Assembly: GCF_014217805.1 (NCBI RefSeq)
Contig: NZ_CP055156.1
Span: forward strand, 5,214,585-5,278,584
Direction of reading: 5' to 3'
DNA length: 64,000 nucleotides
Source of the DNA: Adhaeribacter swui
GTDB lineage: Bacteria > Bacteroidota > Bacteroidia > Cytophagales > Hymenobacteraceae
Below are positions 49,336-53,996 of the stretch, one piece after another (within the stretch, counting starts at the first letter, position 1; each line of letters opens with the position of its first letter). The notes beneath the pieces were generated by a model. It made no database searches. It was not told the origin of the DNA and saw only the letters and a program-made list of their open reading frames with translations. A program made the position numbers and the translations under genes.

Positions 49336-51045
49336 CTAGTCGCAATCTGCATTTGCTGGCAAACAATACTTAACAATCCGGTTATAAAGTTCGTCCGGGT
49401 TAAAGGGCTTGCTTAAGTAATCATTCATCCCCACCTGAAACGCACGGTCCTGAATATCCAACATGGCCGAAGCGGTTAGCGCAATAATTGGCACTTTCTG
49501 GTATTTTTCATCATCTAGCTGGCGAATAGCTAACGTAGTATCATAACCATCCTGCTCCGGCATTTGTAAATCCATCAGAATTAAATCATAATCATTGGCT
49601 TTTACCAAATCTAACGCTACTAACCCGTTTTCGGCAATATCAAAATCAATTTGCCATTGCTCTAAAAACTGCCGTACCAGAAAAATATTAATTTGGTTAT
49701 CCTCGGCAATTAATAAACGGGTTCCTTTTAAGCTTTTTGGCGCAGAAACTACGGTTTCTTTGTTATTAGCCGCCGGACGGTTGCTGTTTTCAAAAGTAAG
49801 ATCAAAATAAAATGAACTGCCTTTTCCTATTTTACTTTCCACAAATATGTCGCTGCCCTGCAATTTAAGCAAATGTTTGATAATGGTTAAACCTAAACCG
49901 GAACCGCCATACTCCCGGGTGGTATCTGATTTAGCCTGCGTAAAGCTCTCGAAAATAAGCTCCAACTTGTTATCCGGAATACCAATTCCCGTGTCGGTTA
50001 CTTTAAAGTTTATGGTGGTGTTCGCTTGGGTAATTTTAATTACTTCCGCCATTACCATCACACTACCTTCTTTGGTAAATTTTACGGCATTACTAATCAG
50101 GTTGGTTAATATTTGACTTAAGCGAACCGGGTCGCCCACAATCATAGATGGTAAATCCTGATCCAATAAAAGCTTCAGTCGCAGACCTTTTTCGTCAGCT
50201 TTTTGCTGAAAAGCATCGCATATGTTACTAATAAGCTTCTTTGGATTAAAATCAATTTTTTCGAATTCTATCTTACCCGCTTCAATCTTACTAAAGTCCA
50301 AAATATCATTTATAAGAGTTAATAAATTGTCGGCCGAAAATTTAAGCACCTTTAGGTATTCTTCCTGATCCAGTCGGGGATCATTTTTCAGAAGTAAATG
50401 GGTAAAACCAATAACGGCATTCATGGGAGTCCGTATTTCGTGGCTCATCGTAGATAAAAAACTGCTTTTTGCCTCGTTTGCTGCCTCGGCCTTGTTTTTA
50501 GCTTCAATTAATTCTTGCTCCGTTTGTTTTTGCTTCGAAATATCTTTCGCAATAATTAAAATGCCGTCGGTTCCTTTAGTATTATTTTTTAGTAAAGATA
50601 GTGAACAGGAAGTTGGCAGCTTATGTCCATCCTTGATTGTAAAAAGTAATTCTTCGTTTAAGCATTTGCCGTCGGTTTTAAACCGCCCCAGTAATTCTGA
50701 GAAAAAAGGGTTATCCTGTAGCTGAACAAAATCAGAAAGTGGTTGATCATGCAGTTCATACTCTATATAACCAGTAAGTTCTTCAAAGGCTGGATTAACA
50801 TTACGGATAGTAAAATCTGTATTCAGAATCAAGAGCATATCCACCACTCCCTGATAGATGCTTTGCATAAAGTCCCGGGAAACGGTAGAATTTTTAAGCT
50901 CTTCGCCCAGCATATTTACGCCGGCAATTATGGCATCTAACTCATCCCCAGTTTCCGAAGCATCTATTTTGTAGTCAAAATTACCATTGGCTACTTCCGC
51001 AATCAGAGTAGAAATTTCCTCGATTCTATCGTTCAGAATATTCAC
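49336..51045 (-). CDS. Cytosolic hybrid histidine kinase/response regulator (HAMP-like, PAS, HisKA, HATPase, REC)
   Basis: 569-residue kinase without any membrane segment. Residues ~5-52 resemble a HAMP helix pair (EVANGNFDYKIDASETGDELD). Then come a PAS domain (~58-172, LLILNTDFTIRNVNPAFEEL), a HisKA with the phospho-accepting His202 in STMSHEIRTPMNAVIGF, and an ATPase with N box SQILTNLISNAVKF and G boxes DTGIGIP and GGSGLGLTI. The C-terminal receiver has its Asp492 in LILMDLQMPEQDG and the Lys in YLSKPF. Phosphate should move from His202 to Asp492 within the protein and perhaps on to an unknown partner. The gene starts 34 bases after the stop of the oxoamine synthase-GNAT gene, so it is the second gene of that operon. 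Confidence 0.93.
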   Translation of the reverse strand: MNILNDRIEEISTLIAEVANGNFDYKIDASETGDELDAIIAGVNMLGEELKNSTVSRDFMQSIYQGVVDMLLILNTDFTIRNVNPAFEELTGYIEYELHDQPLSDFVQLQDNPFFSELLGRFKTDGKCLNEELLFTIKDGHKLPTSCSLSLLKNNTKGTDGILIIAKDISKQKQTEQELIEAKNKAEAANEAKSSFLSTMSHEIRTPMNAVIGFTHLLLKNDPRLDQEEYLKVLKFSADNLLTLINDILDFSKIEAGKIEFEKIDFNPKKLISNICDAFQQKADEKGLRLKLLLDQDLPSMIVGDPVRLSQILTNLISNAVKFTKEGSVMVMAEVIKITQANTTINFKVTDTGIGIPDNKLELIFESFTQAKSDTTREYGGSGLGLTIIKHLLKLQGSDIFVESKIGKGSSFYFDLTFENSNRPAANNKETVVSAPKSLKGTRLLIAEDNQINIFLVRQFLEQWQIDFDIAENGLVALDLVKANDYDLILMDLQMPEQDGYDTTLAIRQLDDEKYQKVPIIALTASAMLDIQDRAFQVGMNDYLSKPFNPDELYNRIVKYCLPANADCD

Positions 51046-51079
51046 GTAATTGAATAGTTTCTATATTTTTAAAATAGTT

Positions 51080-53524
51080 TTACTCTTTTTCTACGGCAAT
51101 CGTAGCTTCTATTAACTCCATGGCGTAATTATCTTTAGCCTGGTAATAACCTACTTTGGGGTAAAGCGTGGCACCTACTCTTTTCTTTTCAATGCTGGCC
51201 GAGATACCAAAGTTTACTTTAGCGCATTTTAAAGCATTAGCCCGCTTAATTACCTGATATAATGTTTGGCGATAAACACCATATTCCATTAAGTAATCAT
51301 AATCCATACCAATTAACATTGGGCTATACACTTGCGCCGAATTAATGTGGCAAAAACAAACAGAAACCGGCAATTTATTTTGAGAATACTCTTCTTTAAT
51401 ATACAGCACTACAAATTCCCAATCTTTACTTTCGTTCATTAAATGGAAAAGCTTTTCCGGGAATAAGAAGTTGTTTAATGAAAAGTTATTGTCTTTTACG
51501 TTTTTGAACAACGTAATGGCGTGTTCTAGTTCCTCCGTTGCCAACTGGGCTTTTACTTTAACATCAAAAAATGGCTCATTTCTTTTAATTTTCTGAACAT
51601 AGTGTCTCCGGTTCTTGCGGGAAAGGCTTTCTACGTATTCTTCTTCTGTAGTCCAGTTTAGGTTTTCTATTACGCAGGACTCCGGCATATCTATTTTCAC
51701 AAAGCCTTGATCCACCATAAACTCATCCATGGATTTATCTTCCGCATCAAAGTCGCGTAGCACAATGTTACTCGCTTGGGTATTTTCCTGCACCCGGTAA
51801 AGCTCATCCATTACCAACTTAAAAGCTTCTTTCCATTGGGCGTTGTTTTTATTTAAGTAAAGGTGGTTGCCCTCCGTAAATAAACTTCCCATGAAAATAC
51901 CTGTCGAGGTTAAGTAGTAAGGATTAAACTCTCTCTCCTTCTCAATAACTTTAGATACCGAAGCCTGCGAAAACATGTCTTCTTTATGCAGCGCCACTAC
52001 AAACGAAGTTAGTAACACCAATTCGCCTTGGGCATCTTCTACCACGTAATATTTAAAATCCCAGTTATTTTCCTGTTCTTCATTATCCCGGAAAGAGTCT
52101 TCTAAAAACTTCATGCCGTTCCAATCAACCATCCCGTCGTTGCCGATGTAATTATTCCAAACCGCGGCATTTATATTTTGAATGGTATCAAATTTTTTAA
52201 CTATTAATTGCGAAGAGGCCGGGTTTGCAGGAGTTTTAACTTCAACTGATGTGGCTAAAGGAGCCATTTTAAAGGCCTTCCGGATTTTCTCATCGGTTTG
52301 GTTAGTTTCTTCTAATGCCCGCTTAAAGTGGAGTTGTAACTTGTCGACCAAAGTTTCGATTTGCTCCAAGGTATTGTTTAAGGAAATGGTGATCCGGATG
52401 CCGATATTTTTGGCTGGTACCGCTGGGAAAGTAGCTAAATTTACGTAGATACCATCGTTAATCAATTCCTGCACCAGGTAATTTCCGGTATCCATAGAAC
52501 CCGTTCCGATAAAAAAGATCGGGCTGTTATTTTCGTGCACCAATGGTAAATTGGTTCGCTTTAATAACTGGTTAAAGTATTCTATTTTATGTTGCAGCTC
52601 TTCCTGGTACTCGTAAATCTCATCGCTTAAGTGAATGCGGGCCGAAGCAATAGCAGCGCCTAAGGTGGCCGGCTCAATTTGTACCGAAAAGGTTAAAGGG
52701 CCACCAAAGTTATTTACTTTATTATACCATTCTTCGTTCGGGAAAAGCGACAAACCGCCACAGGCCCCAAATGCTTTGCCCAAATTTGCCGTTAAAATCA
52801 TTTTGCGGTACAAGCCTTCCGGCATTTGACTCATTACGTAACCTGTACCATGTTTGCCAGCCCAGCTCATGCCGTGGGCATCGTCTACGTATAAATGCAA
52901 CTGCTCATATTTTTCCGCTAAAGCAATCAGCTCTTTAACCGGGGCAAAATCGCCGTACATCGAATACACGCCATCGGCCATGTACCAGATTTTATCGTAT
53001 TTGTTTCTTTGCTTTTTAATGCGGTCTTCCAACATTTCTAAATTATTATGCCGGATCATCTCTACCGCTACCCCTTGGCTCAGCAGTTTTTTTACAGCTT
53101 CCTGGATACTGGCATGAACCTGATGATCCAGAATAACTAAATCAGTGGACCGAATAATGCTGGGTATAGTTGTAAGGTGCGAAAGTGTGCAGTTCTTGGA
53201 AATAACAACCGGGGCATTATACATGGTCCGGATCATACTCTCTAACTCACTGTATAATGGGTTGGAAATATAAGTACGCGACATAGGAAACTGCGTACCA
53301 TAACGCATGATTGCATCAATAGAACCTTCTTTCAGCTTCGGATTATGTTCCAATCCTAAATAACCGCAAGTACCAAAATGAAGTACCTGGTGGCCATTTA
53401 AAGTTAAAACCTGACCGTTTAAAGTTTGGTCTTGCGCATGTAAATGAATAATACCTTTCTTTTTAGACACCGATAATACAGAATCAACCGTATCTATGAT
53501 GTTGTTATGTCTAATTTTTGCCAT
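51080..53524 (-). CDS. Bifunctional alpha-oxoamine synthase (AOS) fused to a GNAT-type acyltransferase
   Basis: 814-residue fusion. Residues ~20-400 are a fold-type I PLP enzyme of the alpha-oxoamine synthase group (BioF, Kbl, serine palmitoyltransferase, CqsA). Marks are FGTCGYLGLEHNPKL, DHQVHASI (133-140), DDAHG (214-218) and the PLP Lys250 in LGKAFGACGG. Residues ~455-810 form a GNAT/FemAB-like acyltransferase region, with LSRKNRRHYVQKIKRNEP, ITLFKNVKDNNF, VCFCHINSAQVYSPMLIGMDY and FGISASIEKKRVGATLYPKVGYY. AOS enzymes condense an amino acid with an acyl thioester to give an aminoketone, and the second domain could then N-acylate it. The product is unknown: a sphingolipid, a sulfonolipid or a signal. 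It is first in an operon with the hybrid kinase. Confidence 0.88.
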   Translation of the reverse strand: MAKIRHNNIIDTVDSVLSVSKKKGIIHLHAQDQTLNGQVLTLNGHQVLHFGTCGYLGLEHNPKLKEGSIDAIMRYGTQFPMSRTYISNPLYSELESMIRTMYNAPVVISKNCTLSHLTTIPSIIRSTDLVILDHQVHASIQEAVKKLLSQGVAVEMIRHNNLEMLEDRIKKQRNKYDKIWYMADGVYSMYGDFAPVKELIALAEKYEQLHLYVDDAHGMSWAGKHGTGYVMSQMPEGLYRKMILTANLGKAFGACGGLSLFPNEEWYNKVNNFGGPLTFSVQIEPATLGAAIASARIHLSDEIYEYQEELQHKIEYFNQLLKRTNLPLVHENNSPIFFIGTGSMDTGNYLVQELINDGIYVNLATFPAVPAKNIGIRITISLNNTLEQIETLVDKLQLHFKRALEETNQTDEKIRKAFKMAPLATSVEVKTPANPASSQLIVKKFDTIQNINAAVWNNYIGNDGMVDWNGMKFLEDSFRDNEEQENNWDFKYYVVEDAQGELVLLTSFVVALHKEDMFSQASVSKVIEKEREFNPYYLTSTGIFMGSLFTEGNHLYLNKNNAQWKEAFKLVMDELYRVQENTQASNIVLRDFDAEDKSMDEFMVDQGFVKIDMPESCVIENLNWTTEEEYVESLSRKNRRHYVQKIKRNEPFFDVKVKAQLATEELEHAITLFKNVKDNNFSLNNFLFPEKLFHLMNESKDWEFVVLYIKEEYSQNKLPVSVCFCHINSAQVYSPMLIGMDYDYLMEYGVYRQTLYQVIKRANALKCAKVNFGISASIEKKRVGATLYPKVGYYQAKDNYAMELIEATIAVEKE

Positions 53525-53591
53525 ATTTTTTTGCTATTATTGTGCTCTTGAGTTTTAACAACACCAATATTGCATTTTATATTCAAATTAA

Positions 53592-53996
53592 ATGTCACAA
53601 TTCCAAGAAGGTGATAGAACCCTAGCCAAAGAAACCGAATATGTCAACATGTTCGTTCAAGACGGAATATTCCAATGCTACTTCAAGCCCATGGAAGTTC
53701 TGGATATTAACGTTGCGCACGTTACGGTAAGAGATAGATTGAACTTTTTGAAGAAAAACTCCTATCCGTCTTTGTTTGATATATCGGAAGTAAAACAAAC
53801 CACTAAGGAAGCCAGGGACTTTATGGCCAATGAAGGGAACGAATTGGTGCTGGCAAGTGCTATGATTGTGTCAAATCCGATGCTTAAAATGATGGCTAAC
53901 TTTTATGTAATGGTAAATAAGCCTAAAAACCCAACAAAATTGTTTACCGATGTAAACAGTGCTTTAGAATGGCTGGCTCAATTTAAAGCCAAGTAG
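53592..53996 (+). CDS. Small STAS/SpoIIAA-like protein (DUF7793-type), divergent from the AOS-GNAT gene
   Basis: 134-residue cytosolic protein. Its pattern (EYVNMFVQDGIFQCYFKP, LDINVAHVTVRDRLNFLKKNSYPSLFDISEVKQTTKEARDF given here in parts, then NELVLASAMIVSNPMLKMMANFYV and LFTDVNSALEWLAQF) is the alternating alpha/beta order of SpoIIAA-like/STAS domains. I have seen this group called DUF7793. These often act as non-enzymatic regulators or phospho-switches. It is transcribed away from the AOS-GNAT gene with only 67 bases between the two starts, so they share a control region. A functional link to the adjacent kinase is inferred. Confidence 0.75.
   Translation: MSQFQEGDRTLAKETEYVNMFVQDGIFQCYFKPMEVLDINVAHVTVRDRLNFLKKNSYPSLFDISEVKQTTKEARDFMANEGNELVLASAMIVSNPMLKMMANFYVMVNKPKNPTKLFTDVNSALEWLAQFKAK

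Follow-up and report, generated by a model that had tools for sequence, protein, structure and literature searches.

The window, that is, the whole stretch of 64,000 nucleotides from Adhaeribacter swui that was analysed (NZ_CP055156.1, in a genome of 6.2 Mb and three contigs), contains a compact module of three genes. In the middle lies a gene in which an alpha-oxoamine synthase (AOS) is fused to a tandem GNAT domain, with a gene for a soluble hybrid histidine kinase on one side and a gene for a small DUF7793 protein on the other. The features are as follows.

51080 to 53524, minus strand: AOS-GNAT fusion, 814 aa, with the AOS at residues ~1-405, a linker at ~406-439 and the tandem GNAT part at ~440-814
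52310 to 53524, minus strand: AOS domain of the fusion, from residue alignment
51083 to 52207, minus strand: tandem GNAT domain with a FemX-like predicted fold, from structure prediction and PF13480
49336 to 51045, minus strand: soluble hybrid histidine kinase, 569 aa, GTG start, from Pfam domains and a hydropathy scan
50536 to 51036, minus strand: HAMP-like and PAS part of the kinase, residues 4-170, the part that is kept when the output domain differs
53592 to 53996, plus strand: DUF7793 protein, 134 aa, SpoIIAA/STAS-like predicted fold
53525 to 53591, no strand: divergent intergenic region of 67 bp between the fusion and DUF7793 genes

The kinase gene lies 34 bp downstream of the fusion gene, and the DUF7793 gene is divergent from it at 67 bp. 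An earlier, sequence-only reading of this DNA had described these three genes with the same spacings, in agreement with the ORF positions, and the residues that it singled out, K250 in the synthase and H202 and D492 in the kinase, are also correct. The genes on the two flanks are leuS-like and ispG-like, as judged by eye. The module has no recognisable gene for export or release of a product, and profile searches near the window's copy revealed no rteC.

Relatives were collected from 30 loci found in a pattern-based scan of contigs and from samples of 59, 395 and 390 genomes, and only fetched loci were counted. When made non-redundant at 90% identity they amount to 70 loci, 54 with the fusion and 16 with an AOS only, where a full fusion is a match running past profile position 600, including the broken L167 and the two copies cut by contig ends, L073 and L132. 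The sequence-only reading had suggested looking for the same neighbourhood in other genomes, and it recurs far beyond the genus. The DUF7793 gene is divergently upstream of the fusion in 49 of the 54 cases, and within 4.5 kb there is a HAMP-PAS protein in 44 and any PAS, histidine kinase or AraC regulator in 45, numbers that come from simple ORF calling and six-frame matches to profiles built from the members themselves, which favour close relatives. At 70% identity, which leaves 36 fusions, the corresponding counts are 31, 26 and 27. As a background we took the ORFs of at least 110 aa that these loci have at a distance of more than 4.5 kb, and among these 126 there was no DUF7793, no HAMP-PAS and one histidine kinase. 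A chance pairing with the kinase is rejected by the retention counts and this background.

The exceptions are few. The five fusions that lack DUF7793 (L045, L046, L137, L145 and L146) also lack a detected regulator. Four fusions have DUF7793 and no detected regulator; three of them lie at contig ends (L063, L130 and L132). In the remaining one, L143, the position normally taken by the regulator is occupied by a protein of 215 aa that is similar by eye and has no profile or Pfam match. Among the AOS-only relatives, one out of 16 has DUF7793. The gene families past the module are mostly common only to near relatives, the wider ones being cluster 4, shared by Pontibacter and Fulvivirga-type loci, and cluster 21, found in four Fulvivirga/Flammeovirgaceae-type loci. 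Across Bacteroidota the fusion, DUF7793 and the regulator stay side by side and constitute a conserved module, of which no description was found in the open-licence papers that we searched. The carriers are patchily distributed, 9 of 395 genomes in the phylum sample (one of them AOS-only) and 43 of 390 in the order sample, as counted at E 1e-60 with the window genome in both samples and with fusion and AOS-only carriers pooled.

Pfam identified PAS, HisKA, HATPase and receiver domains in the window kinase, and a HAMP match of 24.8 bits just below the cut-off of 25. The Kyte-Doolittle scan showed no hydrophobic segment, and the kinase is taken to be soluble, in line with the cytosolic location proposed from the sequence. 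Between loci, the regulators share the HAMP-like/PAS N-terminus and vary in what follows, which can be a hybrid kinase, a simple kinase, an AraC-type domain or nothing; those of the last type are ~215 aa long with no output domain in Pfam. In two loci, L071 and L142, the HAMP-like/PAS part sits on a HisKA_3 kinase, with a response-regulator gene adjoining. The earlier idea of a synthase-sensor unit is a fair one since the neighbourhood recurs, but the constant part of the sensor is the soluble HAMP-like/PAS portion and not the histidine kinase. The order and orientation of the regulator vary between loci, while its presence stays. On a quick tree the regulator type changes 13 times as compared to 38 times in shuffles, so the types follow lineages yet have changed several times; near-relatives inflate the clustering in this tree, and L071 is mislabelled in it as PAS-only, the kinase profile having missed its HisKA_3 kinase.

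The first ~400 residues of the fusion are an AOS both by NCBIfam (PRK07505, 5.6e-89) and by PDB sequence (the serine palmitoyltransferase 2jgt, 6.4e-31); Pfam PF00155 gave no match on the fusion. An AOS is expected to have a PLP lysine, Asp and His cofactor residues, a stacking His and a substrate Arg, and H137, D214, D215, H217, K250 and R377 are invariant in all 54 fusions and all 16 AOS-only relatives. These six catalytic-type residues, together with the alignment to serine palmitoyltransferase, place the protein in the alpha-oxoamine synthase superfamily. It does not reach the NCBIfam cut-off of any model that it matches, three serine palmitoyltransferase models included. The nearest is PRK07505 (NF005697) with 298.6 of 342 bits, and the scores are 152.8 of 640 bits for serine palmitoyltransferase of the Bacteroidota type (NF047600) and 86 of 428 for the CqsA-type model (NF005526). 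The fusion thus shares the PLP AOS match and the catalytic-type residues with serine palmitoyltransferase, cysteate fatty-acyltransferase, BioF and Kbl, but it differs from them in meeting no cut-off, and the genome has other AOS genes, by eye one in an apparent biotin operon and one Kbl-like.

Structure predictions covered the GNAT half (residues 401-814) and DUF7793. The GNAT half is predicted to have a tandem GNAT fold, with a pLDDT of 87 and a pTM of 0.83, and Pfam gave a weak match to Acetyltransf_6 (PF13480) at residues 636-777, 24.7 bits against a cut-off of 22. The best PDB folds are FemX, VipF (an acetyltransferase of the acetyl-CoA type), Sbb17 and Sba18 (aminoacyl-tRNA-dependent ligases) and FemA, as well as further tandem GNATs and lysyl-phosphatidylglycerol synthases (1xf8 2.8e-10; 9wqx TM 0.68 by target), and N-myristoyltransferase appears first at rank 29. 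FemX/FemA, Sbb17 and Sba18 are thereby among the best matches, but here the fold is fused to an AOS. All listed matches are remote, 6-13% identical and ~9-12% for FemX/FemA and the aminoacyl-tRNA-dependent ligases, which implies that the fold does not fix the acyl donor. The tandem GNAT fold is that of the Fem ligases, though it is also common to tandem GNATs that use acetyl-CoA and is therefore not specific for FemX or Fem ligases. A profile of the GNAT half gave two chance-level matches and nothing significant among the PDB sequences. The sequence-only reading had stated that a resemblance of this half to a peptide-forming transferase would speak against it; this is partly what was seen, with FemX and aminoacyl-tRNA-dependent ligases among the best matches, but the acetyl-CoA GNATs match as well.

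The gene first described as STAS-like belongs to DUF7793 (133.5 bits in Pfam). Its predicted fold is SpoIIAA/STAS-like (2q3l 3.2e-6, TM 0.56-0.59), and its sequence profile matches 3bl4, a PDB entry of unknown function, at 5.2e-14. Anti-sigma-factor antagonists that act by partner switching have a conserved phospho-acceptor Ser/Thr; in an alignment of 25 DUF7793 rows, no column of Ser/Thr is invariant or close to it. In 8 of the 14 carrier genomes searched (G006, G030, G040, G079, G114, G159, G256 and G370) the gene beside the fusion is the only copy, and G198 has two fusions and two DUF7793 genes with each pair together. Extra copies are present in G014, G125, G550, G597 and G051, and the window genome has four. 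The expansion reaches 8 copies in G550, 11 in G597 and 18 in G051, and in the last genome none of the 18 matches lies in the stretches around its two fusions, which counts against a signalling module. Two paralogues in the window genome have a kinase in the vicinity, one as a divergent neighbour ~0.8 kb away with no AOS near (L086) and one ~4 kb away (L085). The former suggests that DUF7793 may pair with kinases in general. For three paralogues of the window genome no HAMP-PAS neighbour rose above noise, the best reaching 27.8 bits with 12.3 for the best domain (L085). DUF7793 was not found by name in the open-licence literature searched, and the module gives it a defined genetic partner.

The loci with an AraC-type regulator come from Flavobacteriaceae and from one record named Cytophaga (L068). 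In these the regulator and DUF7793 genes point the same way, away from the synthase gene, and the latter is directly followed by rteC in the same orientation in 8 of 12 non-redundant loci, or 10 of 14 before clustering (L067, L068, L078, L079, L159-L161, L163, L165 and L167), as compared to none of the 42 other fusions. RteC acts in the excision of CTnDOT-type elements. Pfam confirmed PF09357 in all eight that were scanned of the ten rteC loci. Seven such genomes together have 12 RteC matches, one of them partial; six of the 12 adjoin a fusion, and six of the eight fusions are with RteC. Beyond rteC, TraG was confirmed in both loci scanned for it, L068 and L078, and the former also has HTH_17 and a T4SS match below cut-off. 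In L163 and L164 the genes in this region are instead of the topoisomerase-repeat, DUF4099 and N6-methylase/helicase kinds.

It was also possible to observe direct repeats of approximately TTGTCAAWTNGGRAW, 21 bp apart, between the DUF7793 and fusion genes in L067, L161 and L163. Similar single sites are present in L077, L159, L160, L162 and L167 and two sites in L164, and none was seen in the same intergenic region of L068, L073, L078, L079 and L165; the motif was picked by eye and then counted, which makes the count circular. The repeats are a candidate operator for the AraC regulator. L159 and L163 both have a gene with a MauE domain, and the latter locus also has one for an S9 peptidase.

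We consider the chance to be about one in two (roughly 0.5) that the module is a conserved unit of a small-molecule synthase and its sensor, a synthase-receptor signalling system. The AOS half would condense an amino acid with an acyl thioester into an alpha-aminoketone, and the FemX-like/GNAT half would trap the reactive amine by N-acylation or N-aminoacylation. The product would then be sensed within the cell by the PAS domain, and this domain would drive a phosphorelay in the form found in the window and transcription in the AraC form. DUF7793 would be a partner of the STAS type, modulating either the sensor or the enzyme. Where the module lies upstream of rteC on conjugative elements of flavobacteria, it may time transfer. 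Such signalling would provide Bacteroidota with a dedicated means of communication by small molecules, one that has a soluble receptor and is linked to conjugative elements in some flavobacteria.

Known systems give some idea of what such a unit could be. CqsA/CqsS of Vibrio and LqsA/LqsS of Legionella, which signal by alpha-hydroxyketones, likewise have a gene for an AOS-superfamily synthase next to one for a histidine kinase. The sensors CqsS and LqsS are membrane proteins, whereas the window kinase has no membrane segment in the Kyte-Doolittle scan, and the sensor here is soluble, with a HAMP-like/PAS input and DUF7793 as an added partner. The synthase differs from CqsA and LqsA by its fusion to a tandem GNAT, as well as by its low score on the CqsA-type model (86 of 428 bits). 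The best reading is that of a synthase dedicated to a small molecule and paired with a cytosolic PAS sensor, a system that would be CqsA/CqsS-like in function and is not a member of that group. A synthase without a membrane sensor had been put forward as new; LuxI/LuxR is a dedicated synthase with a cytosolic receptor, so the arrangement is not new in itself, but we know of no earlier case with an AOS.

A second comparison is with DPO, an aminoketone joined to an aminoacyl group, and with VqmA of Vibrio cholerae, a cytosolic PAS-HTH receptor. According to PMC12930378, N-alanyl-aminoacetone cyclises to DPO, both compounds activate VqmA, and DPO is proposed to have no dedicated synthase. The fusion differs in that it could do both steps in one polypeptide, and by analogy it could make a compound of the DPO class, which would fit a cytosolic PAS receptor. 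A more specific and rather unlikely proposal is that the fusion is a pheromone synthase, which would make an aminoketone and attach an acyl or aminoacyl group to it. The product might cyclise to a pyrazinone and would be sensed by a PAS receptor in the cytosol that has exchanged its output in evolution, and on flavobacterial conjugative elements control of rteC would tie conjugation to cell density. To our knowledge, a soluble receptor for a dedicated AOS synthase would then be without precedent, as would a system of this kind on mobile elements of Bacteroidota.

An alternative, which we regard as somewhat unlikely, is that the fusion is a biosynthetic gene under regulation, with a specialised metabolite or a minor lipid as its product. 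The PAS regulator and DUF7793 would sense a state of the cell such as redox, energy or a cofactor, and set the expression or activity of the fusion, whose product would not be sensed. PAS domains often bind cofactors, the alignment of the PAS parts showed no invariant pocket residue, and the co-directional regulator and DUF7793 genes, divergent from the synthase in the AraC-type loci, fit control of the synthase promoter; it may be that the role of the regulator is limited to this control. However, that a regulator part is kept beside one enzyme through several outputs is more than expected of an ordinary pathway regulator, and the same is true of the joint absence of regulator and DUF7793. 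Furthermore, apart from the fusion, DUF7793 and the regulator, no gene family recurs across lineages, clusters 4 and 21 being wider than most.

The sequence-only reading considered a possible sphingolipid or sulfonolipid module. In an enzyme of this kind the AOS would make a long-chain 3-keto base and the GNAT half would N-acylate it to a ceramide-like lipid. The relation of the AOS half to serine palmitoyltransferase and the N-myristoyltransferase among the fold matches of the C-terminal half agree with this. The fusion is however far below the serine palmitoyltransferase cut-offs (e.g. 152.8 of 640), and a separate cysteate fatty-acyltransferase relative in the genome is far closer to 28eh (2.4e-178, second to 7u7h at 1.3e-188) than the fusion is (2.5e-20). 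Bacterial ceramide synthase belongs to the GNAT superfamily, and PF04339 (FemAB_like), which we take to be its family, has no match in the window genome and none in the fusion among matches up to E 1. In PMC11324152, CC_1154 of Caulobacter is the N-acyltransferase proposed as bacterial ceramide synthase, and the fusion differs from it in this lack of the family match. Inspection of the module by eye revealed no gene of a lipid pathway, and carriers are scattered (9 of 395 Bacteroidota genomes, a count that includes the window genome and one AOS-only carrier). A lipid role was thus rejected as the leading reading and appears improbable.

That the genes are passengers of conserved synteny or shared mobile cargo without a functional link is very improbable. 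Some flavobacterial copies do lie beside rteC and conjugation genes, but the flanking genes past the module mostly differ between lineages, the regulator is retained despite changed order and orientation, and DUF7793 and the regulator are kept in 49 and 45 of the 54 fusions.

Among plasmids, AOS-only relatives are present in 161 of 72,556 records, with no match that spans 80% of the fusion. Six plasmid loci were viewed, picked from the 161 records as examples only: response-regulator genes are near three of the four rhizobial ones (L171, L173 and L175), one of these three being near traA and another near an acyl-homoserine-lactone synthase gene, and an MFS transporter gene adjoins both enterobacterial ones. 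In uncultured Bacteroidetes (L074-L076), AOS-only relatives that are 48% identical have as neighbours a gene for a response regulator and one for a protein that contains hydrophobic segments. Inside the fusion clade, L147 (G539) has an AOS of 428 aa with no GNAT in its stretch and keeps the divergent DUF7793 and a PAS-only protein, which suggests that the GNAT is not always needed. In a flavobacterial copy, L167/L103 (G114), the fusion gene is broken into two frames, and DUF7793, the AraC gene and rteC remain.
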